Origin: Pseudomonas fluorescens
GTDB taxonomy: Bacteria > Pseudomonadota > Gammaproteobacteria > Pseudomonadales > Pseudomonadaceae
Assembly: GCF_019212185.1 (NCBI RefSeq)
Contig: NZ_CP078138.1
Location: forward strand, 4,012,501-4,076,500
Reading direction: 5' to 3'
DNA length: 64,000 bases
In this document: positions 11,776 through 57,499 of the stretch, piece by piece
How the letters are laid out: every line of letters starts with the position of its first letter
How positions within the stretch are numbered: position 1 is the stretch's first letter
The notes under the pieces: model-generated
Databases searched by the model: none
The model's input: the letters and a program-made list of their open reading frames with translations, nothing else
What the model was told of the DNA's origin: nothing
Program-made: the position numbers and the translations under genes

Positions 11776-12849
<1,074 letters not shown>

Positions 12850-12900
12850 GGTGCATTCCTGGCAGTAAAAGCGCGGGCTCAATCATGCATCAGGATCTAT

Positions 12901-24985: not shown

Positions 24986-24995
24986 GCAGCACCTC

Positions 24996-26054
24996 TCACG
25001 GAGCCTTGGGGGTGGAGCGCCGCCACCAGGGCAGGATGCCCCGGCGGTTGCGCTGGATCATGGTCACGCGCCGCGCAGTGCGAAGTTTTGGCGTGAGCAG
25101 CACGGTCAGCAGGTCGGCCAGCAGATTGATCAACACCACACCCAGGGTAATGACCAGCACGATGGCTTGGACCATCGGCAGGTCGCGCATCTGGATCGCC
25201 GAATTGAGCGCGGTACCGATCCCCGGATAGCTGAAAATCACCTCCGCCAGCAGCGCCCCGCCGATCATCGTGCGCAGGGTCAGCGCCACGCCCTGGATCG
25301 CCGGCACCAGGGCATTGGGCAAGGTATGGCGCCAGACGATGCGCCACTCGGCAATCCCCCGGAGCCGGGCGGCGATCACATAGTCGGATTCCAGCGCCTC
25401 GATCATCGCCGCCCGCACCATGCGCGTCAGGTACGGCAGCGCCGACAGACTCAGGGCCAATATCGGCAGCACGAGGAACTGCAACTGGCGCCACAGCGAG
25501 GTGTCCGGGTCGATCAGCGAGACTGCCGGCAACACGTCCATGTGCGGCATGGAAAACAGCAGCACCAGGCCGATGGCGAGAAGAAACCCCGGGGTGGCCT
25601 TGAGGAAAATCAGCAGCGACAGGCACCAGCGGTCGAGGCGACTGTCGCGGCGCAGGGCCAGGGTCACCCCCAACAGCAACGCTAGCGGAACGACGACGAC
25701 TATCACTCCCGCCAACAGCGCCAGGGTGTAGCCAAAGCGCCCAAACAACAGGCTGCCGACCGGCGCATTGGAATCCAGCGACACCCCCAGCTCGCCGCTC
25801 AATGCCTGGCCGAGCCAGCGCAGGTATTGCTCGAGGATCGGTCGATCCAGCCCCAATTGGCGTTGCAGGGTGAGGATGCTTTCCAGCGGCGCATCCGGGC
25901 CGAGGATCACCCGTGCCGGATCGGAAGGCAGCGCCTGGGTGGCGATGAACACCACCAGGCTGATCACCCAGGCGGTCAGCAGGCCGTAGCCGAGGCGACC
26001 CATGAACCAGGCCAGCCAGGCCGGGGTACGCGGTGTCTTGCAGGAGTCAGGCAT
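24996..26054 (-). CDS. Dpp-type ABC transporter permease (DppB branch)
   Basis: This is a 352-residue permease of the DppB/OppB branch. It shows LPSDPARVILGPDAPLE after the first membrane segment, LTLQRQLGLDRPILEQYLRW, and the EAA loop YVIAARLRGIAEWRIVWRHTLPN. About six membrane segments are seen. Its ATG overlaps the end of the binding-protein gene by eight bases. It forms the inner membrane channel with the DppC-branch permease. Confidence 0.92.
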   Translation of the reverse strand: MPDSCKTPRTPAWLAWFMGRLGYGLLTAWVISLVVFIATQALPSDPARVILGPDAPLESILTLQRQLGLDRPILEQYLRWLGQALSGELGVSLDSNAPVGSLLFGRFGYTLALLAGVIVVVVPLALLLGVTLALRRDSRLDRWCLSLLIFLKATPGFLLAIGLVLLFSMPHMDVLPAVSLIDPDTSLWRQLQFLVLPILALSLSALPYLTRMVRAAMIEALESDYVIAARLRGIAEWRIVWRHTLPNALVPAIQGVALTLRTMIGGALLAEVIFSYPGIGTALNSAIQMRDLPMVQAIVLVITLGVVLINLLADLLTVLLTPKLRTARRVTMIQRNRRGILPWWRRSTPKAP

Positions 26055-27623: not shown

Positions 27624-28817
27624 TTATGCCTGTTCGCGGAGGCGCTGGGCCGGCTGCGCGCTGACACCCAGGCGCGGCACGTCGAAGCCGTGGTCGAGGT
27701 CGAGCAGCGGAAACAGCAGGTCGGCGACCCGATGCGCTTCGTCGATCAGCGGAAAACCGGAGAGGATGAACGCCGAAGTGCCTTCGGCTTCGTACTCGCG
27801 AATGCGCTCGGCGACCTGCTCGGCGCTGCCCACCAGGTAGGTGCCGGCAGCCGGGCCCAGCAGGTTGAAGCCAAACAGGCTCGGGCCGAGCCAGACGTTG
27901 GGGTAGATCTCCAGATCACGGGCCTTGGGCAGGCGCCCGGCGCGCACGGTGTCGAGGTTACGCTGGGTTTGCGGGTCGTCGCTTCGATAGCTGTCGAAGG
28001 TCTCGCCCGGCGGCAACTGGCGCTCGATGGCGGCGCGCGCGGTGTGCAGCGAGGTGCGCTGGAGGAGTTTTTCGGCGTGGGCCCAGGCTTCTTCTTCGGT
28101 CTCGCGGACGATGATCTGCAAGCGGGTGCCGAAGGTCAGCTCACGGCCGATCTTCGCCGCTTCGGCAGCGACCTTGCGGAATTTTTCGCCGAGTTTCGGC
28201 GGGGTGTTGGCGAAGCTCAGGTAGACGTCGAGCAATTGCACCGAATGGGCCACGCCGGGGCCGGAGGTGCCGGCGCCCCACAGCGCAATGCCGGGCTTCT
28301 GCTTGGGCGGATGCCAGCCACCCAGCGGATGCTGCGCGGCAGCTGGCGAACGGGGTGCGAGCTTGACGTACTGACCGTCGTAGCCAGCGGTTTCGCCGGC
28401 GTAGAAACCCTGGAAGGCGCGCCAGTACTCGAGGCTGAAGTCGTAGCGTTCATCGTGGGGATAGTGCACGCCCAAGGTCGCGAGGCCGGCGTCGTTGCCG
28501 TTGACCACGTTGAACAGCAGACGGCCATTGGAAAACTGGTCGAAGGTCAGCGCCCACTTGGCCAATACCGCCGGCGACAGCTCACCCGGATGCTGTGCCA
28601 CCAGGAAGCGCAGGCGCTGGGTGGCATCGATCAACGCGGCAGATACCGCCAGGCTTTCATTGGGGCTGGAGCCCAGCAGCGAACCGTAGTAGCCGAGGCG
28701 ATCACTGGCCACAGCGAGTTGCTTGAGGTGCTCGAAATCGGTCGTCCAGCGGCCTTCGGGCTCCCACGGATAAGGGCCGTCGGGGGTGGTGAGGTACCAG
28801 AGAATCTTTACTGCCAT
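27624..28817 (-). CDS. SsuD-like FMNH2-dependent monooxygenase (LLM class)
   Basis: This is a 397-residue LLM-class flavoenzyme with an SsuD-like start (VKILWYLTTPDG), DRLGYYGSLLGS, RLRFLVAQHPGELSPAV, DQFSNGRLLFNVVNGND, HDERYDFSLEYW, and a C-terminal ILSGFPLIDEAHRVADLLFPLLD that closely matches SsuD. It is the most SsuD-like of the four copies. An AAGGAA ribosome-binding site lies before the ATG. Its product leads the segment with the family-5 receptor and Dpp-type importer. No sigma-54 promoter was found directly upstream, so it may be transcribed from 30.97 kb through the REP region. Confidence 0.92.
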   Translation of the reverse strand: MAVKILWYLTTPDGPYPWEPEGRWTTDFEHLKQLAVASDRLGYYGSLLGSSPNESLAVSAALIDATQRLRFLVAQHPGELSPAVLAKWALTFDQFSNGRLLFNVVNGNDAGLATLGVHYPHDERYDFSLEYWRAFQGFYAGETAGYDGQYVKLAPRSPAAAQHPLGGWHPPKQKPGIALWGAGTSGPGVAHSVQLLDVYLSFANTPPKLGEKFRKVAAEAAKIGRELTFGTRLQIIVRETEEEAWAHAEKLLQRTSLHTARAAIERQLPPGETFDSYRSDDPQTQRNLDTVRAGRLPKARDLEIYPNVWLGPSLFGFNLLGPAAGTYLVGSAEQVAERIREYEAEGTSAFILSGFPLIDEAHRVADLLFPLLDLDHGFDVPRLGVSAQPAQRLREQA

Positions 28818-29111: not shown

Positions 29112-29843
29112 TCAGTCCCGCCGATCAATCGCCGGCACCAACCCCAACTCCGTGGCCCGCTCAAACAACCCACTCATCTTCCACTGCTGAGTCAACACTC
29201 CCGGCCCATAGGCCCGCGATCCACCCAGGGCATCCGCCAGCAATTGCAATTGCGCGCCCTCCTCCAGCAACAGGATGAATTGCGCGGTGGCTCGCAGCCC
29301 CTGCTTACCCCATACCGTAGAGCCGCCGTTGGCTTCGAGGATTGCTAGGTTGAACGGGTTCTCGGCGATCTTGTCGAGGATGAAATCGACTTCCGCCTGG
29401 CGCCGGTCGATGTACACCGGCAGCTCCCGCGCCAACTGGTAACGCTGCACCGGCACGTAATGGAACGGCAGGGTGCGGTGGGTCTGAGCCCAGGCGCCGA
29501 GGTACGGCGAATGCACGTGGGACACGGTGGTGATGTCCGGGTGGGTCTGGAACAGTTTGGTGTAGCGGCCCTGGCCGCCCTTGCCCTTGCCGTAGATCAC
29601 CTTGCCGGCGAAGTCGGTGACCGTCGCCTGCAGCGGCTTGCGGTAGTTCCACGGGCCGCCGTAGTTGATCGACACCAGCAACTCCTCACCCGGCACTCGC
29701 TCGATAAAGCCCACCGTACCGTTGGCGGTGATGGTGTTGGTTTCGCGGAACACCGTGAACGCCTCTTCGGCCTCCAGCAGTACCTGGTCGATGAAGGCCT
29801 GCAGTTGTTCGCTGATCAGTTGTTCGTGAATGAGCACGGTCAT
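29112..29843 (-). CDS. Class II aldolase/adducin-family protein
   Basis: This is a 243-residue class II aldolase fold, related to fuculose-phosphate aldolase and ribulose-phosphate epimerase. The zinc-binding HVHSPYLGAW motif is present (about residue 104), and the RYTKLFQTHPDI and GGSTVWGKQGLRATAQFILLLE segments fit the fold. It lies 15 bp after the DszB-like gene with a GGAG ribosome-binding site, so it is in the same transcript. In this setting it may cleave or rearrange a carbon skeleton made by desulfurisation; the reaction is not deduced from sequence. Confidence 0.85.
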   Translation of the reverse strand: MTVLIHEQLISEQLQAFIDQVLLEAEEAFTVFRETNTITANGTVGFIERVPGEELLVSINYGGPWNYRKPLQATVTDFAGKVIYGKGKGGQGRYTKLFQTHPDITTVSHVHSPYLGAWAQTHRTLPFHYVPVQRYQLARELPVYIDRRQAEVDFILDKIAENPFNLAILEANGGSTVWGKQGLRATAQFILLLEEGAQLQLLADALGGSRAYGPGVLTQQWKMSGLFERATELGLVPAIDRRD

Positions 29844-29858: not shown

Positions 29859-30914
29859 TCAGGCGCGGCGCTTGGCCAACAGTTCATGGGCGGCTTGCAA
29901 TGGGCGCGGGTCGACCCAGTCGGCGATGTTGAAATCGCCTTCGAGGAAGCCGTGCAGGTAGAGGAAATCTTTCTGGATGCCGAGAAATTCCAGGCGCTGC
30001 GCCGACAGGTCCGGCGCCAGGGTGGTGTGGAAATCGCCGCGATAGGCCTCGGCGACACCAGCGCTGCCGGCGCGGGTTTCTTCTTCAAGGATCTGGTTCA
30101 GCGCCTCGCGGTTGTTCGCGGCCCAGTCAGCGGCACCGAGGGTTTGCGCGAGGAAGCGCACCACCAGGTCGAAGTGATTGTCGAGCAGGCTCTGGTGCAC
30201 GGTGATCGGCCGTGGCGTGCCGTTATTGACCCGATAGCGCGGGTCTTCGATCAGGTCCAGGTCGATGCCCACCACCAGGCCCAGGCGCCGCGCGGCGTCG
30301 GCGGCGGAAGCGCCCTTGACGTAGACCGCATCGACTTCGCCGCGCACCAGGTAATCCAGGCCCGACCACAGGCGCTGCAAACCTTCGTTGGGATTATTCG
30401 CCGCCTGCTGGTCCTGCAACGCCACTTCCACCAGTTGCACGTCGTCGAACCCCAACCCGGCCAGGCTCAAGGCGCCCTTGTAGCCGTGCAGACTCATGGC
30501 TCGGGCGATGCTCCCAGGACGACTGTCGCCCCAGGCCGGCAACGCCAGGCGCTTGCCCTTCAGGTCGGCGGCGCTGCGGATGCCGGAGTCCGGACGCACG
30601 AGGATGGTTTGCCACTCCTCGATCCAGGTCAGGCCAATCAAACGGCTCGGCGCACCGGCGGCGCGGGCTGCCAGGGCCGGCACATTTCCGCCCTCGCGAA
30701 ACAGCCCGGGCAACTGGTGATCGTAATGGTGGTGACCCAATTGCCGGGCCTCCTGCAGGGTCGAGACCGGCAGGCCATCGGCGGCGAATTCGTCCGCCAG
30801 CCAGCCGAGTTTGTAGGCGATGCCGGAAGCGGTCGGCACCGGGCAACGGGTGAACCAGATCCGCTCGAGTTCAGCTTCGACAAGCGGTTGGGTGGTTTGG
30901 GCAGCAAGCGTCAT
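29859..30914 (-). CDS. DszB-like desulfinase with Cys-His-Arg residues
   Basis: The start is the ATG at 30912-30914 (GGAG ribosome-binding site), giving 351 residues. There is no signal peptide, which argues against a periplasmic binding protein despite the shared fold. The N-terminus FTRCPVPTASG matches DszB around its catalytic Cys27 (YSNCPVPNA). Here Cys24, His63 and Arg73 line up, and the His-Arg spacing of ten equals DszB His60-Arg70; REGGNVPAL matches RFGGEIPPL. DszB hydrolyses an aryl sulfinate to sulfite. It is first in an operon driven by a sigma-54 promoter at 30957-30973 and is divergent from the DszC-like gene. Automatic annotation would probably call it an ABC binding protein. 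Confidence 0.8.
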   Translation of the reverse strand: MTLAAQTTQPLVEAELERIWFTRCPVPTASGIAYKLGWLADEFAADGLPVSTLQEARQLGHHHYDHQLPGLFREGGNVPALAARAAGAPSRLIGLTWIEEWQTILVRPDSGIRSAADLKGKRLALPAWGDSRPGSIARAMSLHGYKGALSLAGLGFDDVQLVEVALQDQQAANNPNEGLQRLWSGLDYLVRGEVDAVYVKGASAADAARRLGLVVGIDLDLIEDPRYRVNNGTPRPITVHQSLLDNHFDLVVRFLAQTLGAADWAANNREALNQILEEETRAGSAGVAEAYRGDFHTTLAPDLSAQRLEFLGIQKDFLYLHGFLEGDFNIADWVDPRPLQAAHELLAKRRA

Positions 30915-30956
30915 GGGCAGCTCCAGCGGGTTGGGCAAGACAGTTGCCAAGCCCAT

Positions 30957-30973
30957 TGCAGCGCCCGTGCCAA
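30957..30973 (-). promoter_or_regulatory. Sigma-54 (-24/-12) promoter of the DszB-like operon
   Basis: Read on the minus strand it is TTGGCACGGGCGCTGCA, with GG and GC ten bases apart, close to the TGGCACG-N4-TTGCA consensus. It lies about 45 bp before the ATG at 30914. Confidence 0.85.
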
Positions 30974-31035
30974 CCGCGCAAAGCCAGGGATTACGGGGCC
31001 TGCAGCGGCGCACCCGAAAATCGCCCGCGGACAAT

Positions 31036-31051
31036 TGCTGACCTGCCAGCA
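31036..31051. promoter_or_regulatory. Putative SfnR-like activator site 3
   Basis: TGCTG-ACCTGC-CAGCA, an exact palindrome. It lies 31 bp from the next site, nearly three helical turns. Confidence 0.65.
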
Positions 31052-31066
31052 GCTTTGCGCAGGCGC

Positions 31067-31082
31067 TGCTGCTGGCCCAGCA
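31067..31082. promoter_or_regulatory. Putative SfnR-like activator site 4
   Basis: TGCTG-CTGGCC-CAGCA, an exact palindrome. It is central, about 110 bp from the minus promoter and about 100 bp from the plus promoter. Confidence 0.65.
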
Positions 31083-31098
31083 ATACAGCACCGCGCAT

Positions 31099-31114
31099 TG
31101 CTGCCCCAGCAGCA
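31099..31114. promoter_or_regulatory. Putative SfnR-like activator site 5
   Basis: TGCTG-CCCCAG-CAGCA, an exact palindrome 32 bp from site 4. Confidence 0.65.
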
Positions 31115-31167
31115 GCCCGTGCCCCGACACCCCGCCCAACCCCGCGCCCGGCCTGGCCTCGCCGACC

Positions 31168-31184
31168 TTGGCGCACTCCTTGCT
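31168..31184 (+). promoter_or_regulatory. Sigma-54 (-24/-12) promoter of the DszC-like gene
   Basis: TTGGCGCACTCCTTGCT has GG and GC exactly ten bases apart and a TTGC -12 box. It lies about 70 bp before the ATG at 31255. Confidence 0.85.
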
Positions 31185-31254
31185 CAAGACCCCTTCACCC
31201 CCGGTGCGCCGCAGACCCGCGCCCGGCCCGATTGTCCTTTTCCGAGGTAGCACC

Positions 31255-32496
31255 ATGAGCACCCTTGAACACCTTCCCGCCCATCCCGTCCGTGTGCTGC
31301 GCAGCGAGGAGGAAGCCATTGCCGCCGCCCGCGAGATTGCCCTGGAGATCGCCGAGATTGCCGCCGACCCCAGGCACAACCACCAACTGCCTCGGCGTCA
31401 GGCGCAGCTGTTGTCGGAGAGCGGCCTGACCGCCATCGGCGTGCCCAAGGCCTTCGGCGGCCTCGGTGCGTCGGTACAGACCATCGTCGAAACCGTGCGC
31501 CTGATCTCGGTGGCCGATGGCGGCGTAGGCCAGTTGCTGCAGATCCACAACGTGATGCTGCGGGGAATTTTCAGCGGCTACCCGGACGAGGTGCGTGACC
31601 AACTGATCGGCGATGTGCTGGCCGGCAAGCGTTTCGGCAACGCCCTGGCGGAGGTCGGCGGCAAGAATAAGTTCGCCCTGAAGACCCGGGTCGAACGTCG
31701 CGCCGACGGCAAGCTGATCCTCAATGGCAGCAAGTTCTACTCCACCGGTTCGTACCTGGCCGAATGGATTTCCCTGACCGCTGCGTCCGATGATGGCGGT
31801 GCCGGGGTGCTGCTCAATCGCAACACCCCGGGCCTGACCCTGGTGGACGACTGGGAGGCGTTCGGGCAGAACAACTCGGTCAGCGGCACGGTGATTTTCG
31901 ACAACATTGAGCTCGACGAGCGTTTCGTCTCCCAGCGTAAAGGACCGATGAAACGCACCGGCCTGACCTTCCCGCAGATTCTCCATGCCGCCATCGACAC
32001 CGGCATCGCCGCCGGCGCGCTGGGAGCGGCGGTCGACTACCTCAAGCAGCACGCCCGGCCCTGGGTGGAAAGCGGTGTCGAGCGCGCCAATGAGGAACCG
32101 CACATCATCAAGCAAATTGGCGAATACGCGGTGGCGCTGCGGGCGGCCGAGTCGCTGTTGCGCGACGCCGCACGGGTGTTTGACCAGCATGAGCTGGACC
32201 CGGACAACAAGGCGCTGCAGGACGAATTGATTCTTTCGGTGGCCACTGCCCGAGCCCACTCAGACGGCGCCTCGTTGAAGATCTCCAGCGATATTTTTTC
32301 CCTGCTCGGTGCCAGTTCCTCCCTGAGCAAATGGAACCTCGACCGCTTCTGGCGCAACGCCCGGGTGCACACCACCCACGACCCGATCCGCTGGCGCCTG
32401 CATCACGTCGGCAACTATTACCTCAATGATGTGGACCCGGGGGAGTACACGGCGATTCTCAATGCCAAGGAAAAACAGGGGGCAACTCGGGGCTGA
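31255..32496 (+). CDS. DszC/SfnB-like flavin-dependent monooxygenase (acyl-CoA dehydrogenase fold)
   Basis: The start is the ATG at 31255 behind a GAGGTAG ribosome-binding site; a longer in-frame form adds 29 Pro/Arg-rich residues. The 413-residue protein has the acyl-CoA dehydrogenase fold, but its motifs follow DszC: LTAIGVPKAFGGLGA, ILNGSKFYSTGS, a central GQNNSVSGTVIFDNI, and C-terminal LDRFWRNARVHTTHDPIRW, matching DszC FDRFWRNVRTHSLHDPVSY. DszC oxidises a thioether S atom to sulfoxide and sulfone with FMNH2 and O2; SfnB is a related Pseudomonas protein. Divergent from a DszB-like gene and preceded by its own sigma-54 promoter. Confidence 0.87.
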   Translation: MSTLEHLPAHPVRVLRSEEEAIAAAREIALEIAEIAADPRHNHQLPRRQAQLLSESGLTAIGVPKAFGGLGASVQTIVETVRLISVADGGVGQLLQIHNVMLRGIFSGYPDEVRDQLIGDVLAGKRFGNALAEVGGKNKFALKTRVERRADGKLILNGSKFYSTGSYLAEWISLTAASDDGGAGVLLNRNTPGLTLVDDWEAFGQNNSVSGTVIFDNIELDERFVSQRKGPMKRTGLTFPQILHAAIDTGIAAGALGAAVDYLKQHARPWVESGVERANEEPHIIKQIGEYAVALRAAESLLRDAARVFDQHELDPDNKALQDELILSVATARAHSDGASLKISSDIFSLLGASSSLSKWNLDRFWRNARVHTTHDPIRWRLHHVGNYYLNDVDPGEYTAILNAKEKQGATRG

Positions 32497-32530
32497 CGGC
32501 GTACCAGAACCACCTCGGTGACACCTGACC

Positions 32531-32620
32531 CTGTAGGAGCCGGCTTGCCGGCGAAGGCGTCCTTGAAAACGCCAGAAGCTTCGCTGCGATGCGGCGTCCC
32601 GACAAGCCAGCTCCTACAGA
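32531..32620. repeat. REP doublet
   Basis: CTGTAGGAGCCGGCTTGCC at about 32531 and an inverted unit ending CAGCTCCTACAG at about 32620, in the 206-bp gap before the ABC exporter genes. No promoter is obvious in the gap. Confidence 0.7.
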
Positions 32621-32702
32621 GACCTGGGTCAGCCACAACATTCGGGGCACCCGCAGATTGTCGATGTGAATCGCCTCCCCCATCCCCCAACCGAGTCCTT
32701 CA

Positions 32703-34484
32703 ATGATTGAAAAACACCCCCTTCTGCGCTGCCTGGCGATCTACCGGGAGATGCCCTGGCGCTTTGCCCTGGTGGCGGCGCTGTATATAGCGATCAACCT
32801 AGGGCTGGTCTGGCAGCAATGGCTGATCGGCCATGCGGTCAACGACGTCAGTGCCGGCCGCGCCGTGGTGCGCCAGGCTGACGGCAGTCTGGATGCCGGC
32901 CTCGGCTGGTACTGGCTGTGGCTGATGCTCGCCGTGGCGCTGGGCCGTGGCGTACTGCAATACGCTGCCAGCGTGTTGTCGCTGGTGCTCAGCCAGGAAC
33001 TGCTGACCCGCCTGCGCGAACGCATCCTGCAGCAGGTGCAGCACCTGCACCTGGGTTATCACTGGCAACACGGCATGGGCGAGATGATCACCCGCACCAC
33101 CCGCGATGCCGACAAGGTCCGCGACGCGCTGATCAGCTTCTGGCGCCAACTGGTGGAAACCCCGCTGGTGGTGCTCGCCACCGTCGGCCTGCTGGGCTGG
33201 TACCACCCGCTACTGGGGCTGGTGCCGTTGCTGCTGACGGTGCTCGGCCTGTGGATTTTCGTGCGCCAGACCGAACGCCTGGTCAGCCTTGATCGGGCCG
33301 TCGGCGCCGCCTACGACCGGGTCAACCAGGACCTCAGCGAAGGCATCGGCGGCGTGCGGGTGATCAAGTCATTCAGCCTCGAGCACAGCCGCATTCAGCG
33401 CTTTGCCGCGCAGGTGGCGGTGTTCGCCGACCACGCGCGCGCCGCCCTCGCCTACTCCAGTTCACGCATCCCGCTGCCGCAGGCGGTGGTCGCCCTCGGC
33501 CATGTGTGGATCCTGATCTACGGCGCCCATCTGGTCGCCAACGGGCAATTGGGCATCGGCGAACTGGTGACCTCGCTGCTCATCGCCACGACCCTGGTGT
33601 TTCGCATCGAAGGCATCGGCCGGGTGATGCAGACCTTTGCCGACGCGCGCTCCAGCGCCGAACGCATCTGGCACCTGCTGGATGAGCCGGCGGCCATCCG
33701 CAGTGCCCAGGCTCGGCTACCCGACACCCCGCTGGGACTCAAGCTGGAGCAGGTCAGCGTCAGCGCCCCGGGCGGCGGTCGGGCAATTCTCGAAGACTGC
33801 TCACTGACCTTGCAACCTGGTGAAATCGTCGCCCTGGTAGGCGCTACCGGCACCGGCAAAAGCCTGCTGGCCAGCCTGCTGCCGCGTCTTACCGAAGTCA
33901 GCGGCGGCCGCCTGCTGCTGGGTTCCGACAGCGCCGGCTGGCAGGACATCCGCGACCTCGACCTGGGCCAATTGCGCCGCCGGGTGCACGTGGTGCCCCA
34001 GGAGAGTTTCCTGTTCTCCGACACCCTGGCCGCCAACCTGCGCCTCACCGCGCCCGGCGCCAGCGACGAGCAACTGCGCCAGGGCCTGCGCCTGGCCGCT
34101 GCCGAAGACGTGCTGGAGCGCCTGCCCCAGGGCCTCGACACGCCGCTGGGTGACCGTGGCGTGACCCTCTCCGGCGGCCAGCGCCAGCGCCTGAGCCTGG
34201 CCCGGGCGCTGCTCGGCGAGCCGGACATCCTCTGCCTGGACGACGCCACCAGCGCCCTCGACGCCATCAGCGAGCGCCGGGTGCTGGACAACCTGCGCCA
34301 GCTACGCCGCGACCAGGGCCGGGCGACCAGCGTGCTGCTGATCTCCAGCAAACTCTCGACCATCCTCCTCGCCGACCGCGTGCTGCTGCTCAAGGACGGC
34401 CGCATCAGCGCCAGCGGTCGCCACGCCGAACTGCTGCGCACCCACCCCGACTACCGCGAACTGCTAGGGATCGACCATGGCTAA
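32703..34484 (+). CDS. ABC exporter half-transporter with degenerate ATPase site
   Basis: This is a 593-residue MsbA/type IV exporter half: about six membrane segments (residues 20-300) with EMITRTTRDADKVRD in the first coupling helix, then a nucleotide-binding domain. Walker A GATGTGKS (about 380) and signature LSGGQRQRLSLARAL are canonical. The catalytic Glu after Walker B is Asp (LCLDDATSALD, about 510) and the switch His is Ser (LLISSKLSTI, about 545). This is the pattern of the degenerate partner in heterodimeric exporters such as TM287/288. It overlaps the next gene by eight bases. Confidence 0.9.
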   Translation: MIEKHPLLRCLAIYREMPWRFALVAALYIAINLGLVWQQWLIGHAVNDVSAGRAVVRQADGSLDAGLGWYWLWLMLAVALGRGVLQYAASVLSLVLSQELLTRLRERILQQVQHLHLGYHWQHGMGEMITRTTRDADKVRDALISFWRQLVETPLVVLATVGLLGWYHPLLGLVPLLLTVLGLWIFVRQTERLVSLDRAVGAAYDRVNQDLSEGIGGVRVIKSFSLEHSRIQRFAAQVAVFADHARAALAYSSSRIPLPQAVVALGHVWILIYGAHLVANGQLGIGELVTSLLIATTLVFRIEGIGRVMQTFADARSSAERIWHLLDEPAAIRSAQARLPDTPLGLKLEQVSVSAPGGGRAILEDCSLTLQPGEIVALVGATGTGKSLLASLLPRLTEVSGGRLLLGSDSAGWQDIRDLDLGQLRRRVHVVPQESFLFSDTLAANLRLTAPGASDEQLRQGLRLAAAEDVLERLPQGLDTPLGDRGVTLSGGQRQRLSLARALLGEPDILCLDDATSALDAISERRVLDNLRQLRRDQGRATSVLLISSKLSTILLADRVLLLKDGRISASGRHAELLRTHPDYRELLGIDHG

Positions 34485-36330
34485 TCCAATCGCCGGCAAA
34501 GCCTTGAGCGATATTGAAATCGAAGAAATGCTCGCGAAAAAAGCCCTCGACCGCAGCATGTTCAAGCGTCTGTTGCCGTTGCTGCGGCCGATTCGCGGGT
34601 CGATCGTCGCGGTGATCGGCATCGAGCTGCTGCTGGTGTTCACCGTGTTCCTGCGACCCTGGTTCGTCCGCGAACTGCTCGACCGAGGGCTGGTGGCCGA
34701 AGCCGATCACTGGCTGCTCGACGAGCGCCTGGTGCTGTGGCTCGGCCTCGGGCTGGCGGCCAGTTGGCTGGGGCGTTTCCTGCTGGCGGGAGTCTCGCAG
34801 TTCATCGCCGGCAGTGCCGCGATCCGCGTGCTCAACGCACTGCGGGTGCGAGTGTTTGCCCACGTGCAAAGCCTGAGCGTCAGCTACTTCGACAAAACCC
34901 GCGCAGGACGGATCATTTCCCGTGCCGACCGCGACGTCGACAGCCTCGAACCGCTGCTGATCCAGGGCCCACCGGAACTGCTTGGAGCGCTGCTGCGCTG
35001 CGGGCTGGCAGCCGTGATGCTGTGGCGCATCGACCCGCGTTTCTTCCTCAGCCTGGCAGCTACGGTGCCCTTGCTGGCGCTGGCGACCTGGAGTTTCAAG
35101 CGAATTTCCCAGCGCAACTGGGCCAAGGTCGCGGAGAACCGCAGCCGTTTCACCGCCCACCTGGTGGAAAGCGTCAGCGGTGCGCGAATGCTCCAGCAAT
35201 GCGCCCAGGAAGCGCCCAACCTCAAGCGCTACCGCCGACTGCTGGAGGACTTCAACCAGGCGCTGATTCGCGGCAGCCTGCGTTCCAGCTGGTTCGCGCC
35301 CTTCACCGCGCTGCTCAGTTCCGCCGGCATGGCGGTGCTGTTGCTGGTCGGTGGCTATGGACTGGCGCAGGCCGACGTCACGGTGGGACAGATCGCCGAA
35401 AGCCTGTTCTACGTGTTCCTGTTCCTCGGCCCGCTGCAGGAACTCTCGGACCTGTTCGAACGCTACGCCACCGGCTCGGCCTCGGCGCAGCGGATCTTCC
35501 TGCTGCTCGACACCCAGCCGCAAATCAATGACAGCCCCACCCCGCAAGCCCTGGGCCGGGCCCGGGGTGCGGTGAGTTTCGAGCAGGTGCGATTCGCCTA
35601 TGACCCGCACAGCCCGACGCCGGTGATCGATCACCTGGATCTGCAGATCATTTCCGGCGAAGTGCTGGCGATTGTCGGTCCGTCCGGCCACGGCAAGAGC
35701 ACCCTGGTGCAGTTGCTCACGCGGTTCTACGAGGCGCAATCCGGGGCGGTGAAGCTCGATGGCATCGACGTGCGCGATCTGAGCCAGCGTGATCTGCGGC
35801 GCAATGTCGGCGTGGTGCTGCAGGACAACGTGCTGTTCAGCGGCTCGATCCTCGACAACCTGCGCCTCGCCGCGCCGGAGGCCGACGATGCACGCTTGAT
35901 CGCCGCCGCCCGCGAATTGGGGGCCGATGAGGTGCTGGAACGCTTGCCCCATCAGTACCGCACCGAGGTCGGGCCGCTGGGCGGACACCTCAGTCATGGC
36001 CAGCGGCAACTGGTGTGCCTGGTCCGCGCCTATCTTGCCGATCCGGCGGTGCTGGTCCTCGATGAAGCCACCTCGGCGGTCGACATCCACACCGAGCGGC
36101 GCATCCAGCGCGCGTTCCGCCGCCTGTGCCAGGGCCGCACGGCAATCATCATCGCCCACCGCCTGGCGACCATCCGCGACGCTGATCGCATAGCGGTGAT
36201 TCAGCGCGGACGCCTGGTGGAGCAAGGGCCGCACACGCAACTGATCGACCAGGGCGGTGCCTATGCCGCGCTGTACCAGACCTACCTGCGCAGCGCCGCC
36301 AGCGAGGATCAGGCTGTCGCCACTGCCTGA
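34477..36330 (+). CDS. ABC exporter half-transporter, catalytic partner
   Basis: This is a 617-residue exporter half with about six membrane segments and a nucleotide-binding domain. Walker A GPSGHGKST (about 400), Walker B with catalytic Glu (LVLDEATSAVD) and the switch His (IIIAHRLATI) are intact. The signature is altered to LSHGQ. This is complementary to its partner: its canonical Walker A/B/His face the partner's LSGGQ, so one composite site should be active and the other weak. The pair probably exports a hydrophobic compound; its position inside the sulfur region suggests a substrate or a desulfurised product. Confidence 0.9.
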   Translation: MANPIAGKALSDIEIEEMLAKKALDRSMFKRLLPLLRPIRGSIVAVIGIELLLVFTVFLRPWFVRELLDRGLVAEADHWLLDERLVLWLGLGLAASWLGRFLLAGVSQFIAGSAAIRVLNALRVRVFAHVQSLSVSYFDKTRAGRIISRADRDVDSLEPLLIQGPPELLGALLRCGLAAVMLWRIDPRFFLSLAATVPLLALATWSFKRISQRNWAKVAENRSRFTAHLVESVSGARMLQQCAQEAPNLKRYRRLLEDFNQALIRGSLRSSWFAPFTALLSSAGMAVLLLVGGYGLAQADVTVGQIAESLFYVFLFLGPLQELSDLFERYATGSASAQRIFLLLDTQPQINDSPTPQALGRARGAVSFEQVRFAYDPHSPTPVIDHLDLQIISGEVLAIVGPSGHGKSTLVQLLTRFYEAQSGAVKLDGIDVRDLSQRDLRRNVGVVLQDNVLFSGSILDNLRLAAPEADDARLIAAARELGADEVLERLPHQYRTEVGPLGGHLSHGQRQLVCLVRAYLADPAVLVLDEATSAVDIHTERRIQRAFRRLCQGRTAIIIAHRLATIRDADRIAVIQRGRLVEQGPHTQLIDQGGAYAALYQTYLRSAASEDQAVATA

Positions 36331-36333
36331 GCC

Positions 36334-36349
36334 TGTTGCAGCGCCAACA
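36334..36349. promoter_or_regulatory. Putative SfnR-like activator site 6 (TGTTG-N6-CAACA)
   Basis: TGTTG-CAGCGC-CAACA is a perfect palindrome starting four bases after the exporter stop codon, about 100 bp upstream of the -24/-12 promoter. Confidence 0.55.
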
Positions 36350-36365
36350 ACCACTGCTGACGAGG

Positions 36366-36381
36366 TGCTGCTACAGACGCA
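36366..36381. promoter_or_regulatory. Putative SfnR-like activator site 7 (degenerate)
   Basis: TGCTG-CTACAG-ACGCA has a full left arm and weaker right arm, exactly 32 bp from site 6. Confidence 0.4.
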
Positions 36382-36432
36382 GTGCCCCGTCCGCAGCGGC
36401 GCTGAAACCCGTAATAGAGCCTCCACGGCGCA

Positions 36433-36448
36433 TGGCATGGCCGTTGCA
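36433..36448 (+). promoter_or_regulatory. Sigma-54 (-24/-12) promoter of the 36.5-39.9 kb operon
   Basis: TGGCATGGCCGTTGCA has GG and GC ten bases apart and a TTGCA -12 box, about 65 bp before the ATG at 36513. Confidence 0.85.
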
Positions 36449-36512
36449 CTCTCCTTTCGCAAGGCGTGCGCGCAGCGATGCGGCACACGGTAATAGCGAA
36501 TCAGGAGCAGCC

Positions 36513-37676
36513 ATGACCACGGAATTTTTCTGGCGTCTGCCGCTGGGCACCGACGGCCCACAGTTGACCACCGACAAACACAATCGCGGCAATCCACAGT
36601 ACCGCCCGGGGCATATTGCGCCGGGACGCCTGGCCAATGGTGAGCCGGACGACTTCACCTACATCGACTACATCGCCCAGGTGGCCAAGGCCGCCGAGCT
36701 GGCGGGCTTTGAAGGCGCTCTGCTGCCCACCGGCCCCGAGCCGTGGATGGTCGCCGCCGCCCTGGCCCGGGAGACCCGGCGCATCAAGTTTCTGATCGCC
36801 TTCCAGGCGACCTGGACCCTGCCGGCCTACGCCGCACAACAGGCGGCGATCCTCCAGCACCTTAGCCGTGGACGCCTGGACTGGAACATCATCACCGGCG
36901 GCAACCCAGCCAGCCAGCGCGCCAACGGCGACTTCCTCGAACATGACCTGCGCTACAAGCGCACCGGCGAATTCCTCGACATCATCGACGGCCTGTGGCG
37001 CAACGATCGTTTCTCCTACGAGGGCGATATCTACCAACTGGAAAACGGCGCCCTGCCCCACGGCCTGCACAACGAGCGCAAACCAGGGGTGTATTTCTCC
37101 GGTTTCTCCGATGCCGCGCTGGACGTTGCCGCCAAACATGCCGACGTCTACCTGAACTGGGCCGAGCCGATCGACAAACTCAAGCCGCACATCGAGCGAG
37201 TGCGCGAGTTGGCCGATAAACAAGGGCGCACGGTGCGCTTCGGGCTGCGCGTCGATCTGTTCGCCCGGGAGACCGAAGAGCAGGCCTGGGCCGATTTGCG
37301 TCGCCAGTTCGACAAGCTCGAGGGCCAGAGCAGTGTGGTCGCGAAAAACTTCACCAGCGGTTCGGACTCGGTCGGGGGCGCGCGGCAAACCGCCTATCAC
37401 CAGAACGTCGATCGCTTTGATGACCTGATCATCGGCCCCAACCTCTGGGCCGGTTTTGCCAAGGCCAAGCCGGGCCCGACCGTGGGCCTGGTGGGCAGTC
37501 ACCAGAACATCGCCGAGCGCCTGGTGGAATACCGCGACGCTGGCTTCTCGACCTTCATCCTCGCCGGTAACCCGCACCTGGAAGAGGCCCTGCGCATCGG
37601 TCAGGAAGTCCTGCCTCTGGTGCACCAGCGCCCCGCCGCTGACCGCAAGGACACACTGATGGAGAAAGCTTCATGA
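36513..37676 (+). CDS. SsuD-like FMNH2-dependent monooxygenase (LLM class), coupled to a DszB-like gene
   Basis: The start is the ATG at 36513, behind AGGAG; upstream frame continues through the promoter and is not coding. The 387-residue enzyme resembles the paralogue at 15.5 kb: TEFFWRLPLGTDGPQ, YIDYIAQVAKAAELAGFEGAL, RIKFLIAFQATW, HLSRGRLDWNIITGGN, HDLRYKRTGEFLDII, AAKHADVYLNW, and C-terminal ILAGNPHLEEALRIGQEVLPL. Its stop overlaps the ATG of the next gene in ATGA. The dszA-dszB junction in Rhodococcus also overlaps, which supports the view that this oxygenase makes the sulfinate cleaved by the next protein. Confidence 0.9.
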   Translation: MTTEFFWRLPLGTDGPQLTTDKHNRGNPQYRPGHIAPGRLANGEPDDFTYIDYIAQVAKAAELAGFEGALLPTGPEPWMVAAALARETRRIKFLIAFQATWTLPAYAAQQAAILQHLSRGRLDWNIITGGNPASQRANGDFLEHDLRYKRTGEFLDIIDGLWRNDRFSYEGDIYQLENGALPHGLHNERKPGVYFSGFSDAALDVAAKHADVYLNWAEPIDKLKPHIERVRELADKQGRTVRFGLRVDLFARETEEQAWADLRRQFDKLEGQSSVVAKNFTSGSDSVGGARQTAYHQNVDRFDDLIIGPNLWAGFAKAKPGPTVGLVGSHQNIAERLVEYRDAGFSTFILAGNPHLEEALRIGQEVLPLVHQRPAADRKDTLMEKAS

Positions 37677-38716
37677 GCCAAACACTCGACACCCTCTGGT
37701 ACACCCGTTGCCCGGTGCCGACCGGGCTTGGCATCGCCGTGCAAAAAGGCTGGTTGCAGGACGCGGTCGGCGCCCTTGGCACCGGCGTGCAGTCGCTGCG
37801 CGAGTCCAGCGATAAAGCGGTGCGCGAATCGCACTTCGACCACACGCTGCGCAACTCGGTGCGCCACGGCGGCAGCATCCCGGCGATCTGGGCCCGCGCC
37901 CAGGGCCGGGAAACCCGAGTCATCGGCCTATCCTGGGCGGATGAAAGCCAGTTGATCCTGACCCGCCCCGACAGCGGCATCCACCGCGTCAAGGACCTCA
38001 AGGGCCGTACCTTCGGCCTGCCGGACTGGGCCGGCGCACAGATCGACTTCACCCGCGCCCAGGCCCTGCGCGGCCTGGAAAACGCCTTGAAGCTGGAGGG
38101 TCTGCAAGTGGGCGACCTGCAACTGGTGAACTTCCGCTACGGCGGCACCTTCAGCGACGGTCAGGTGCAGACGGTGAATGGCACGCCGGTCAGCCAGCAG
38201 CGGGTCGAAGGGCGCAACCTGGAATTGATCGGCCTGCTGCGCGGCGAGGTCGACGCGATCTTCCTCAAGGGGGCCAGCGCCGCGCAATATGCCCATGATT
38301 TCGGCTTGCGCACAGTGATCGACACCGGCGCCCATGCCGATCCGCTGATCCGCAGCAACAACGGCACGCCGCGCACCCTGGCGGTCGACCTGCATTTGCT
38401 GGAGCAGCATTTCGACGTCGCCAGCGGCATTCTCGATTCAGTGCTGCGCGCCGAGCAATGGGCCCACACCCACCCGGACGAGACCCGCCGCTACCTGGCG
38501 CGGGAAACCAACAGCAGCGAGTACTGGGTCAGCAGCGCCTACGGCGACGACGCCCACCTGCGCCTGCGCACCGCCCTCGACGAACAGGCCATCGGCGCCC
38601 TGCAGGATTTCACCCACTTCCTGCACCGCTGGCGCTTCATTCCCAAGACGTTCGACGTGCGTGAGTGGATCGATCCGCGGCCGTTGGCGGCATTGGACCG
38701 GGCGCTGGCCGGATAA
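37673..38716 (+). CDS. DszB-like desulfinase with Cys-His-Arg residues
   Basis: This is a 347-residue protein without signal peptide, so cytoplasmic. LDTLWYTRCPVPTGLG matches DszB RDTLTYSNCPVPNALL around catalytic Cys27, giving Cys13 here. His54 and Arg64 (SHFDH..., VRHGGSIPAIWA) keep the ten-residue spacing of DszB His60-Arg70. The rest is a two-lobed binding-protein fold (VKDLKGRTFGLPDW, LLRGEVDAIFLKGASAA), which DszB also has. Predicted to hydrolyse a sulfinate to sulfite plus the desulfurised carbon compound. It is translationally coupled to the SsuD-like gene and followed, 88 bp on, by a paralogue with the Cys replaced. Confidence 0.82.
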   Translation: MSQTLDTLWYTRCPVPTGLGIAVQKGWLQDAVGALGTGVQSLRESSDKAVRESHFDHTLRNSVRHGGSIPAIWARAQGRETRVIGLSWADESQLILTRPDSGIHRVKDLKGRTFGLPDWAGAQIDFTRAQALRGLENALKLEGLQVGDLQLVNFRYGGTFSDGQVQTVNGTPVSQQRVEGRNLELIGLLRGEVDAIFLKGASAAQYAHDFGLRTVIDTGAHADPLIRSNNGTPRTLAVDLHLLEQHFDVASGILDSVLRAEQWAHTHPDETRRYLARETNSSEYWVSSAYGDDAHLRLRTALDEQAIGALQDFTHFLHRWRFIPKTFDVREWIDPRPLAALDRALAG

Positions 38717-38725
38717 CGCCCCCCC

Positions 38726-38754
38726 CTGTAGGAGCTGGCTTGCCAGCGCCTACA
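38726..38754. repeat. Short REP element
   Basis: CTGTAGGAGCTGGCTTGCCA followed by a TACAAG end forms a small hairpin in the 88-bp gap between the two DszB-like genes. Confidence 0.6.
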
Positions 38755-38804
38755 AGGCCCGTGTCAGCCCATTCAGGCTCAACCCATTCAACCGAAGAAT
38801 CCCC

Positions 38805-39863
38805 ATGAGCAAACCACTCGATACCCTTTGGTACACCCACAGCCCAGTCCCCACCGGCCTCGGCATTGCCGTGCAATCCGGCCGCCTGGCCGAGGCGTTC
38901 CTGCCGTTTGGCACTAACATCCAATCCTTGCGTGAATCCAGCGAACGGGAAGTTCGTGAAGCGCACTATGACCATCACCTGAAGAACTCAGTGCGCCACG
39001 GCGGCAATATTCCCGCGATCTGGGCCTACGCCAGCGGCGTGCAGACCCGGGTCGTCGGCTTGTCCTGGAGCGACGAAGTGCAACTGATCCTGACCACCGC
39101 CGAAAGCGGGATCAAGACCGTGCGTGACCTGAAGAACCGACGCTTCGGCATTCCGAAATGGGCCAACGTGCAGATCGATTTCACCCGCGCCCAGGCCCTG
39201 CGCGGCCTGGAAAATGCGCTCAAGCTCGAAGGCCTCGACGTCAGTGATGTCGAGCTGGTGGACTACCCCTACGGCGGCACCTACAGCGACGACCAGAAGC
39301 AGCATGTCTACGGCTCGGAAGTCAGCCTCGGCACCAGCCGTTTCAGCCGTCGCAACAATGAGTTGATCGGCCTGCTGCGCGGCGACATCGACGCGATCTT
39401 CCTCAAAGGCGCCCACGCCGTGCACCTGGCCGACGAGTTCGGCCTGCGGGTGGTGATTGATACCGGCTCCCACCCTGATCCGCTGATCCGCTCGAACAAC
39501 GGCACGCCGCGCACCCTGACCCTCGACACCCACCTGTTGCACGAGCATTTCGATGCCAGCGTGACGATTGTCGACACCGTGCTGCGCACCGAACAGTGGG
39601 CCTGGGCCAACCCCGACGAGACCCGGCGCTTTCTTGCCCGCGAGTTGAACACCAGCGAATATTGGGTCGCGGCCGCCTATGGCGAAGACGCTCATCGCCG
39701 CCTGCGCACCACCCTGGATGCCCGCTCCATCTGCGCATTGCAGGATTTCACCGACTTCCTCCACCGCTGGAATTTCATCCCGCGGCGCTTCGATGTGCGT
39801 GACTGGATCGATTTCAGTGTGCTGGAGAAAGTCATCGGCTCGACTTCGCGGCTGGCGGTTTGA
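38805..39863 (+). CDS. DszB-like paralogue with catalytic Cys replaced by Ser
   Basis: The start is the ATG at 38805; an in-frame ATG 144 bases upstream lies in the previous gene. It has 352 residues and no signal peptide. It closely follows the upstream paralogue along its length (LDTLWYTHSPVPTGLG, HYDHHLKNSVRHGGNIPAIWA, LRGDIDAIFLKGAHA, DPLIRSNNGTPRTL). The key difference is Ser13 (codon AGC) where DszB Cys27 and the paralogue Cys13 sit; His54 and Arg64 are kept. A Cys27Ser change inactivates DszB, so this protein may be a non-catalytic ligand-binding or regulatory form, or use another chemistry. Confidence 0.8.
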   Translation: MSKPLDTLWYTHSPVPTGLGIAVQSGRLAEAFLPFGTNIQSLRESSEREVREAHYDHHLKNSVRHGGNIPAIWAYASGVQTRVVGLSWSDEVQLILTTAESGIKTVRDLKNRRFGIPKWANVQIDFTRAQALRGLENALKLEGLDVSDVELVDYPYGGTYSDDQKQHVYGSEVSLGTSRFSRRNNELIGLLRGDIDAIFLKGAHAVHLADEFGLRVVIDTGSHPDPLIRSNNGTPRTLTLDTHLLHEHFDASVTIVDTVLRTEQWAWANPDETRRFLARELNTSEYWVAAAYGEDAHRRLRTTLDARSICALQDFTDFLHRWNFIPRRFDVRDWIDFSVLEKVIGSTSRLAV

Positions 39864-40645: not shown

Positions 40646-40661
40646 TGGCACGATCTCTGCT
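40646..40661 (+). promoter_or_regulatory. Sigma-54 (-24/-12) promoter of the tandem TonB receptor genes
   Basis: TGGCACGATCTCTGCT has a perfect TGGCACG -24 block, and GG and GC are ten bases apart. It lies about 40 bp before the ATG at 40701. Confidence 0.87.
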
Positions 40662-40700
40662 CTACCCCTCTCAATGAATCTTTTCCGGGGGAGTAAAACC

Positions 40701-42974
40701 ATGCACACACTGAATCCAATCACCAAGGGCATCTGGCTCGCGTTGCTGCTGGCAGGGGGCACCGCCAGCGAGGTCGCACTGGCGGCCGACACCACCGATA
40801 ACCAGGCGTCGCCGAGCAGCACCGAACCCGCGCTGAAAACCGTCACCGTCACCGCGCAGCACCGCGAAGAAACCCTGCAGGAAATTCCGGTGGCGGTGTC
40901 GGCGATCCAGGGCACTAACCTCACCACCGACGGCGTGCGCGCCATGGGTGACATCACCACCTTCGTGCCCAACGCCTCGGCGAAAAACCCGGACGGCGAC
41001 GGTCGACCGCGCTGGTACATTCGTGGCCTCGGCACCGGCGATACCGGCGCCGCCACCGTCTACCCGGTGGGTATCTATTCCGATGACGTCTACCTCAACG
41101 CACCGATCGCCGGCGGCGGCCCGCTGTATGACCTGGAACGCATCGAGATCCTGCGCGGCCCGCAAGGCACGCTGTACGGCAAGAACACCACCGCTGGCGC
41201 AGTGAACATCATCTCCAATAAACCGAGCCTCGATGCCCCTACCAATGGCTACGGCACCGTCGGTGTCGGCAGCAAGGACGAACGCATCGTCAGCGGCGCG
41301 CTGGGGGGCGTACTGGTGGACGAACGCCTGGCCGCACGGGTGGCGCTGTATTCCGAGGAGCGTGACGGCTTTGCCGATAACCTCACCGATGGCCACACCT
41401 ACGGCGACGTCAACAAGAAAGCCGTGCGCGTGCAGTTCCTCGCCCAGCTCAACCCCGATCTCGAAGCGCTGCTGAAAATCCACGCCCGCCAGCACAATGG
41501 CGACGGCAGCAACGGCTCGCTGCCGGTGGGCCGCTACTACAACGTCGGCTACCAACGGCCGAACGGGCGCGACATCGAACTCAACGTCAAGGAAGATGCC
41601 AAGCTCGACCACGACGGCACCTCGCTGACCTTCAACTGGAACCTGGGCGACTACACCCTGACCTCGATCAGCGCCTACGACTACATTCGCGGCCAGTCCA
41701 CCAGTGATGCCGACTTCACCCCCTACGAAGTCAACGGCGCGGCCAAGGCCGACAACAAGTACAGCCAGTACTCCCAGGAGTTTCGCCTGGCCTCGCCGCA
41801 GCAGGAAACCCTGCGCTGGCTGGCCGGCGCCCACTACTTCCACGAAACCCTCGACAGCGCCGCCTCGCGTTTCATCACGCCCGGCCCGACGCCCAACGGC
41901 AGCGGCTCGAACCAGATCGGCGCGACCGATGTGCGCAACCTCGACTACGACCACAAGACCGACAGCTACGCGCTGTTCGGCAACCTGACCTACGACTTCA
42001 CCGACAACTTCACCGTCACCGGCGGCCTGCGCTACACCCAGGAACGCAAGGAGATCGACCTCGACCTGCTGCAACAAACCCGCACCAGCGCCAACGGCCC
42101 ACTGGTGCCGCTGCCCGGCGTCGGCACCAACGGTAATCGCCAGGAAGCCAACACCTGGGAAGCCTGGACCTATGACGTGACCCCGGAATACCGGATCAAC
42201 GACAACCTGCGGGTGTTCTTCCGTTACGCCCACGGCTTCCGCTCCGGCGGCTTCAACACCGGCCTGTCCACCAGCCTGGCGCAACTGACCACGGTCGATC
42301 CGGAGAAACTCGACGCCTATGAAATCGGCCTCAAGTCGGAGTGGTTCGATCGCCGCCTGACCGCCAACGCGAACATTTTCTACTACGACTATTCGGACAT
42401 TCAGGTGAACCTACTGACGGTCAACAACGGCGTGCTGACCACCGCCTTGACCAACGGTGCCTCGGGCAAGGTCCAGGGCGCCGAGCTGGAACTCGAAGGC
42501 CAGCCGACCGACTACCTGCACCTGCGCGCGGCGATCTCGTTCCTCGACACCGAGTACACCGACTTCAAGAACACCAACCCCAACACCGGCGCGGTGACCG
42601 GCGACTACAGCGGCAACAGCTTCGTGCGCTCGCCGCGCAATGTGGTCGCACTGGGCGGCGACTACACCTTCCCGCTGGAGATCGGCGGCAAGCTGGTGGC
42701 CGGTGGCGACGTGACCTTCCGCGACAAGGAATACTTCCTCGCCGACCGCCAGAGCAGTGTCGACAAGACCATGAGCCAGCCCCACTACACCCTGGCCAAC
42801 ACCCGCCTGACCTGGTTCAGCCCGGATGAGCAACTGAGCGTCACCGGCTTCGTCAACAACGTCACCGACCGCCGCTACCAGGTCCACGGCCGGCCCAACG
42901 GCACCCTCGGCCAATACGTGATCACCTACGGCGACCCGCGCACCGTCGGCCTCAGCGTGACCAGCCGCTTCTGA
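40701..42974 (+). CDS. TonB-dependent outer membrane receptor
   Basis: The start is the ATG at 40701, after a GGGGGAG ribosome-binding site; an earlier in-frame ATG lies at the promoter. The 757-residue protein has a signal peptide ending VALAAD, a TonB-box-like KTVTVTAQHREETLQEIP, plug motifs (GDITTFVPNASAKN, RWYIRGLG, ERIEILRGPQGTLYGKNTTAG) and a barrel ending in Phe (LSVTSRF). This class is usually annotated as a generic receptor. Because it has its own sigma-54 promoter and activator sites, it is probably induced by sulfur limitation and imports a sulfur compound. Confidence 0.9.
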   Translation: MHTLNPITKGIWLALLLAGGTASEVALAADTTDNQASPSSTEPALKTVTVTAQHREETLQEIPVAVSAIQGTNLTTDGVRAMGDITTFVPNASAKNPDGDGRPRWYIRGLGTGDTGAATVYPVGIYSDDVYLNAPIAGGGPLYDLERIEILRGPQGTLYGKNTTAGAVNIISNKPSLDAPTNGYGTVGVGSKDERIVSGALGGVLVDERLAARVALYSEERDGFADNLTDGHTYGDVNKKAVRVQFLAQLNPDLEALLKIHARQHNGDGSNGSLPVGRYYNVGYQRPNGRDIELNVKEDAKLDHDGTSLTFNWNLGDYTLTSISAYDYIRGQSTSDADFTPYEVNGAAKADNKYSQYSQEFRLASPQQETLRWLAGAHYFHETLDSAASRFITPGPTPNGSGSNQIGATDVRNLDYDHKTDSYALFGNLTYDFTDNFTVTGGLRYTQERKEIDLDLLQQTRTSANGPLVPLPGVGTNGNRQEANTWEAWTYDVTPEYRINDNLRVFFRYAHGFRSGGFNTGLSTSLAQLTTVDPEKLDAYEIGLKSEWFDRRLTANANIFYYDYSDIQVNLLTVNNGVLTTALTNGASGKVQGAELELEGQPTDYLHLRAAISFLDTEYTDFKNTNPNTGAVTGDYSGNSFVRSPRNVVALGGDYTFPLEIGGKLVAGGDVTFRDKEYFLADRQSSVDKTMSQPHYTLANTRLTWFSPDEQLSVTGFVNNVTDRRYQVHGRPNGTLGQYVITYGDPRTVGLSVTSRF

Positions 42975-42975
42975 T

Positions 42976-42999
42976 CCCTTGCCCTTGCCCTTGCCCTTG
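42976..42999. repeat. Hexanucleotide tandem repeat (CCCTTG)4
   Basis: Four exact CCCTTG units lie in the 49-bp gap between the two receptor genes, just upstream of the second start codon. Unit changes would alter spacing to the ribosome-binding site. Confidence 0.8.
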
Positions 43000-43023
43000 C
43001 CTGCACCCGAAAGGAATCCGCTC

Positions 43024-46521: not shown

Positions 46522-46530
46522 GAGCCGGAC

Positions 46531-47292: not shown

Positions 47293-47303
47293 AAGGTCCT
47301 GAA

Positions 47304-52699: not shown

Positions 52700-52713
52700 T
52701 GGGTTTGCTCCCG

Positions 52714-57494: not shown

Positions 57495-57499
57495 GCTGA

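Follow-up and report, generated by a model that had tools for sequence, protein, structure and literature searches.

Candidate sulfinate desulfinases and a predicted natural C27S form of DszB in a likely sulfur-scavenging gene cluster of Pseudomonas fluorescens

The desulfinase DszB of Rhodococcus (PDB entries 2de2, 2de3, and 2de4) catalyses a step of biodesulfurisation that is slow and inhibited by its product, and it works without a cofactor, in contrast to the desulfinases that depend on pyridoxal phosphate (PMC6100217, PMC12168087; all papers are cited here from the parts available). Its C27S mutant binds the substrate and is inactive, with a computed barrier that rises from 31.4 to 37.4 kcal/mol, while the H60Q mutant loses activity only about 17-fold and the R70 mutants are insoluble, Arg70 being assumed to be structural (PMC6100217). 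In the route of the msu/sfn genes of Pseudomonas (SfnG, MsuC, MsuD, and SfnR), methanesulfinate is oxidised to the sulfonate, and the route as described in the available part of PMC8234197 contains no desulfinase. We analysed a 64,000-nucleotide stretch of the Pseudomonas fluorescens genome (contig NZ_CP078138.1, positions 4,012,501 to 4,076,500; hereafter, the window), which encodes three DszB-like proteins, A, B, and C, within what is likely a sulfur-scavenging gene cluster (hereafter, the island). The reading that we tentatively favour is that A and B are likely sulfite-releasing sulfinate desulfinases, and that C is predicted to bind such a sulfinate uncleaved, likely as a partner that holds it for the monooxygenase LLM4 and for the Cys enzymes. 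The main new point is that C is predicted, from its sequence, to be a natural C27S form and not a third desulfinase.

The genes of protein A (29859..30914, minus strand; 351 aa; Cys24, His63, and Arg73), protein B (37673..38716, plus strand; 347 aa; Arg12, Cys13, His54, and Arg64), and protein C (38805..39863, plus strand; 352 aa; His12, Ser13, His54, and Arg64) were all present where the original prediction had placed them, the minus strand of A having been left unstated there. They were the only relatives found in the genome at E <= 0.001 in a search with B, and the identity was approximately 67% between B and C and 40% between A and B. The top match of each among 177,635 distinct PDB sequences was DszB (2de2/2de3; E-values of 1.8e-14, 2.5e-11, and 5e-8 for A, B, and C, respectively). 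The predicted structures of B and C, a check called for by the original prediction, gave the DszB fold, with DszB as the best fold match and the SsuA fold at lower Z. The best 12-residue mean N-terminal hydropathy was 0.82–1.07 in A, B, and C, against 2.04, 1.88, and 1.89 in the SsuA, OppA, and TonB receptor of the island; by this crude test, which uses N-terminal hydropathy alone, no signal peptide was seen in the three proteins, consistent with the earlier claim. The suspicion that such proteins are annotated as binding proteins was also borne out, the commonest NCBI name among the database matches listed being 'ABC transporter substrate-binding protein'. Several Joint Genome Institute (JGI) entries already bear the name 2'-hydroxybiphenyl-2-sulfinate desulfinase, and the idea that such proteins are desulfinases is thus not wholly new.

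The catalytic positions were compared in a set of 315 proteins, comprising the best 120 of each of 1656, 1126, and 2176 matches from overlapping searches together with the window's own proteins, one wrong-strand translation being left out. Arg64 was found in 315 and His54 in 314 of them, and column 13 held Cys in 241 and Ser in 71 (missing in 3). At columns 13, 54, 64, 66, and 67, A, B, and DszB read CHRGG and C reads SHRGG; the Cys13 codon of B (TGC; 37709..37711, plus strand) aligns with Cys27 of DszB, and the equivalent Cys is present in 24 of 24 A rows and 90 of 90 B rows of the 215-row alignment described below. The Cys-His-Arg set that had been reported for two of the three proteins is therefore seen in A and B, and the His-Arg spacing of ten, equal to that of His60 and Arg70 in DszB, holds in all three, C included. 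The accompanying statement that these DszB residues are established as catalytic stands for Cys27, but extends neither to His60 nor to Arg70 in light of the mutants cited above.

Such a comparison also bears on the possibility that A, B, and C are all non-enzymes, that is, cytoplasmic organosulfur-binding proteins or sensors derived from SsuA. The overall fold is shared with SsuA/TauA at the lower Z, A and B lie above the Pfam cut-off of the NMT1 family and C just below it, and all three match the SsuA_fam model under its cut-off (68.7, 69.8, and 85.2 bits, respectively, vs 163.5), as does the island's own SsuA (96.5 bits). A, B, and C differ from SsuA/TauA in having RxGG and no visible signal peptide. 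However, DszB is clearly nearer than SsuA, and the full Cys-His-RxGG set of A and B is absent from nine SsuA-type controls, which read GFALG, GLALG, or GFARG (the island's SsuA and eight proteins from other Pseudomonas genomes, several being near-copies of one another). The Arg of the island's SsuA falls in column 66 in the control alignment and in column 64 in the 215-row alignment, so that Arg alone does not separate that protein. On balance, we regard a purely binding role for all three as quite unlikely.

The pocket of DszB is less well conserved. Its residues Ser25, Tyr63, and Gln65 are not kept in A and B, where Thr, His, and Leu are found (the latter two positions being His57 and Leu59), and A and B are therefore not filed as DszB itself, although they may still work like DszB. 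Conversely, Trp119, Arg227, and Arg234, common to A, B, and C in the 215-row alignment, have no counterpart in DszB. These three residues would also fit enzymes acting on another bond or group, for instance a decarboxylase, or a lyase that breaks the C-S bond of a sulfonate, as would a decarboxylase with the same fold (9jp7) and the sulfonate-type kinship of LLM4; set against this, the Cys-His-Arg set is the desulfinase set, and the differing residues could equally tune specificity. We consider this alternative for A and B unlikely.

The Ser form of C was examined in a main alignment of 215 rows from 118 loci, in which three loci (L001, L002, and L084) are the window re-extracted and the genome sets may overlap. 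Among the 101 rows matching C best, 98 carried Ser and 3 carried Cys (Sinorhizobium and Variovorax). Within Pseudomonadaceae, the genomic rows read Arg12-Cys13 in B (84/84, not counting six rows from other families) and His12-Ser13 in C (98/98). Ten columns are fixed differently between B and C, of which 12, 13, and 53 coincide with the catalytic Cys or His or adjoin one of them. The Ser forms in the database read HS (67), QS (1), SS (1), and NS (1), the proteins P0141, P0192, and P0193 having Gln, Ser, or Asn at column 12. The Ser13 codon of C (38841..38843, plus strand) is AGC in 69 and AGT in 7 of 76 named Pseudomonadaceae loci (80 loci were kept, and four sphingomonad loci were left out). 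In a tree of 120 rows built by a quick method (99 genomic rows, left after thinning at 93% identity, plus 21 hand-chosen database proteins), 33 Ser rows and P0195 formed one branch, with a Shimodaira-Hasegawa-like approximate likelihood ratio test (SH-aLRT) value of 100; this branch adjoined the Pseudomonadaceae B branch (joining branch, 83), and the DszB branch was very long and its placement unsure. Because the sphingomonad and other B-like rows outside the Ser branch carry Cys, the Ser state is derived, with essentially one origin.

C thus resembles the DszB C27S mutant with bound substrate (2de3) and differs from it in being a lineage of genes in which the adjacent residue has also changed, to His12, rather than a laboratory mutant. 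A search of open-licence PMC papers by title and abstract yielded no natural Ser form of DszB. As the DszB mutant binds the substrate yet is inactive, C is predicted to bind and hold a sulfinate. The proposal that all three proteins are sulfinate desulfinases can accordingly be retained as probable only for A and B, which keep the catalytic set, since C has the Cys-to-Ser change that inactivates DszB.

The evolutionary constraint on C was stronger than that on B. The median ratio of nonsynonymous to synonymous substitution rates (dN/dS) against the window was 0.098 for C (76 named loci) and 0.237 for B (65 loci); locus by locus, dN/dS was lower for C in 65/65 and dN in 64/65 comparisons, and in all-against-all comparisons of 84 shared loci the identity was higher for C than for B in 3188 of 3486 pairs. 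The corresponding dN/dS values were 0.133 for LLM4 (75 loci), 0.096 for SfnB (40), 0.185 for A (9), 0.211 for SsuC1 (49), and 0.160 for SsuB (45). C is not decaying, and the idea that B or C are decaying copies was set aside given the low dN/dS.

We then surveyed 398 Pseudomonas genomes, including that of the window (E <= 1e-40; a hand count in which C was told from B and A by identity). A match was found in 60 genomes, C in 57, B in 49 (all with C), and an A-like match only in 3. C occurred without B in 8 of the 57 genomes (G009, G127, G130, G226, G302, G319, G332, and G359), all of which carry the A gene, and Ser13 of C and Cys24 of A were read in 7 of the 8; in most of the other 49 genomes, C was assigned by identity and the Ser was not read genome by genome. 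In a family survey of 198 genomes, C was present in 27, of which 24 lie outside the genus Pseudomonas, and B in all 27. Taken as distinct Pseudomonadaceae genomes, 81 had C and 73 had B, and C was present in 73/73 of those with B. Across the phylum, 7 of 398 genomes had a B match (five of them Pseudomonadaceae), and the family is therefore patchy.

The strong constraint on C and its retention without B in 8/57 genomes would also fit an active but diverged enzyme, in which Ser13, perhaps with His12, does other chemistry on a related substrate. His12 changed along with Ser13 (R12-C13 in B, H12-S13 in C), and enzymes of the same fold with other residues exist, namely Thi5, MqnD, and 4,5-dihydroxyphthalate decarboxylase. 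In opposition, the C27S change inactivates DszB, with the higher computed barrier given above, and His12 is not strict, as the three database proteins with another residue at column 12 indicate. An active C is, in our estimation, somewhat unlikely.

B and C lie directly behind LLM4, an FMNH2-type, SsuD/MsuD-like monooxygenase gene (36513..37676, plus strand) whose stop codon overlaps the start of B (ATGA). In the 76 named loci, B was present in 65 and always immediately 5' of C, with LLM4 immediately 5' of B in 63/65; in all 11 B-less loci, LLM4 stood immediately 5' of C, and every C read Ser. Sites of the sigma54 type were sought within 160 bases upstream of each gene, allowing <= 2 mismatches with GG and GC kept. 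A -24/-12 site precedes LLM4-B-C (36433..36448, plus strand; 2 mismatches here) and was found in 69/70 orthologous loci. Further sites precede SfnB (31169..31184, plus strand; 19/26 loci), A (30957..30972, minus strand; 7/8), the first TonB receptor (40646-40661; 48/48), and SsuC1 (45708-45723; 34/52). Such sites were rare before B (3/76 rows, some of them C genes that the B query picked up where B is missing) and absent before C (0/76), and were likewise scarce before the exporter genes (0/38 and 1/38), the second TonB receptor (3/41), and SsuB (1/41); the internal gene SsuC2 had weak sites in 15/52 loci, none with <= 1 mismatch. As the window as a whole shows a mild excess of the motif (35 sites vs 24.2 expected; 2 of 100 shuffles as high), the argument rests on the position and conservation of the sites. 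Most plausibly, LLM4, B, and C form a single operon, presumably induced by starvation. A sigma54 activator (AAA+; 11776..12882, minus strand) without a recognised sensor domain has a layout like that of SfnR, which is controlled by CysB and, in a sigma54-dependent way, regulates the use of dimethyl sulfone in P. putida (PMC8234197, PMC10256816). No island gene was identifiable in the sulfur-starvation and exudate responses given in the available parts of PMC12581299 and PMC10256816. The interval between B and C (38717-38804) contains a short palindromic repeat, with similar copies after C, presumably of the kind spread through Pseudomonas genomes.

Downstream of C, the 76 loci had a TonB-type receptor (52), SsuC1 (14), or nothing recognised within the fetched stretch (10). 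The position immediately 5' of SsuC1 in 14/76 loci is the usual place of a binding-protein gene, and would suit C as the periplasmic binding protein of the SsuC1-SsuC2-SsuB importer. However, no signal peptide was seen in C, for which reason this role was set aside; moreover, a signal-bearing SsuA is present in the island, and ssuA adjoins the permeases in a Sphingobium cluster described below. We regard it as very improbable.

LLM4 was nearest to alkanesulfonate monooxygenases (E 1.5e-68), followed by SfnG, with DszA far behind (2.4e-12). Presumably, PDB entry 7jv3 is MsuD. The nearest solved relatives of the SfnB-like protein were DszC and methanesulfinate monooxygenase. The island therefore shares with the msu/sfn genes an SfnB/MsuC-like oxidase, an SsuD/MsuD-like monooxygenase, a sigma54 activator, and sigma54-type promoter sites, and SfnG offers a precedent for a sulfinate-making flavin enzyme of the group of LLM4 (PMC8234197, available part). 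It shares with the 4S (dszABC) pathway a DszC-like oxidase near the DszB-like genes, but there is no dszABC operon, LLM4 is alkanesulfonate-monooxygenase-like and only distantly DszA-like, and the DszC-like SfnB lies upstream behind its own sigma54-type site. The route is thus not plainly the Dsz-like one that had been envisaged, and the pocket residues and LLM4 kinship together mean that an aromatic sulfinate is not implied.

Under the favoured reading, an organosulfur compound would enter through the TonB, ATP-binding cassette (ABC), and SsuCB carriers, the SfnB-like oxidase would oxidise its sulfur, and LLM4 would cut one C-S bond and leave a sulfinate. A or B would then protonate the carbon and free sulfite. 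C would bind the sulfinate in the closed conformation observed for the C27S mutant of DszB, and would shield it, pass it on, or signal how much of it is present. We prefer holding or handing over to sensing as the role of C, since the link between C and LLM4 outlasts the loss of B. The more specific proposal that C is a dedicated pseudoenzyme, a metabolite chaperone derived from an inactivated enzyme and carrying a labile sulfinate from LLM4 to its Cys twins, is possible but doubtful.

Several observations weigh against this reading. The identity to DszB is approximately 25%, the grouping of Cys13, His54, and Arg64 within the cleft is suggested by the alignment to DszB, and given the pocket differences A and B may act on something other than a sulfinate. 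LLM4 is of the sulfonate type, and sulfonate monooxygenases give sulfite directly, with no desulfinase needed. C is independent of B in the eight B-less genomes, in one of which (G359) C and A both have heads that are out of frame, so that neither residue was read. P0195, inside the Ser branch, reads HC, and P0131, P0098, and P0092 are 82–87% identical to C with a B-type head carrying Cys. The latter three are apparently B/C mosaics and were left out of the tree.

Mosaics with a B-like head and a C-like tail were seen more widely in the database (P0092, P0098, P0131, P0061, P0064, P0069, P0070, and P0055), with P0116 in the reverse arrangement; they may have arisen by recombination between the tandem genes or as artefacts of assembly.

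A varied family of DszB-like proteins in soil bacteria, mostly named as binding proteins, would widen the enzyme pool. If true, a naturally fixed Ser form selected more strongly than the Cys form next to it would clearly illustrate how an enzyme can become a small-molecule holder.

Related gene sets were found in other lineages. A Sphingobium plasmid cluster contains three DszB-like genes, SsuABC, SsuD-like genes, an aldolase-family gene, an exporter pair, a Fis-family regulator, and an arylsulfatase, and repeats the island's gene set. A second A-type paralog in 5/5 sphingomonad loci (L080, L081, L082, L083, and L114) has Asp for the catalytic His (CDRGG), as does a distant A-type paralog in G130 (L156); by alignment, these paralogs represent a parallel change at another catalytic residue. 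On a Sinorhizobium and a Paracoccus plasmid, DszB-like genes adjoin a gene of the acyl-CoA-dehydrogenase family and ABC importers. The available parts of PMC7661421 and PMC12168087 yielded no further relative.

The other genes of the island and its surroundings were as follows. On the minus strand, A is adjoined by a class II aldolase/adducin family protein (29112..29843), followed by LLM3, an SsuD-like monooxygenase (27624..28817), and an ABC importer of the oligopeptide/nickel type with an ATPase, two permeases, and a binding protein (22350..27612). The plus strand carries the SfnB/DszC/MsuC-like flavin oxidase (31255..32496), paired half transporters of the ABC-exporter type (32703..36330), two TonB-type receptor genes 3' of C (40674..45495), the sulfonate-type SsuC1-SsuC2-SsuB importer (45760..48098), and an SsuA-like binding protein with a signal-like N-terminus, a possible partner of SsuCB (13153..14226). 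A secretory-lipase-family protein (14248-15471) lies between the SsuA-like gene and an SsuD-like monooxygenase. Positions 5901-11440 encode a DUF1552/HXXSHH protein and a 1388-residue DUF1592/DUF1588/DUF1595 protein, both of function-unknown families, and just beyond the island (48104-60094) are type VI secretion genes (IcmF, Tle1-like, and Vgr-type) and a Mutator-family transposase.

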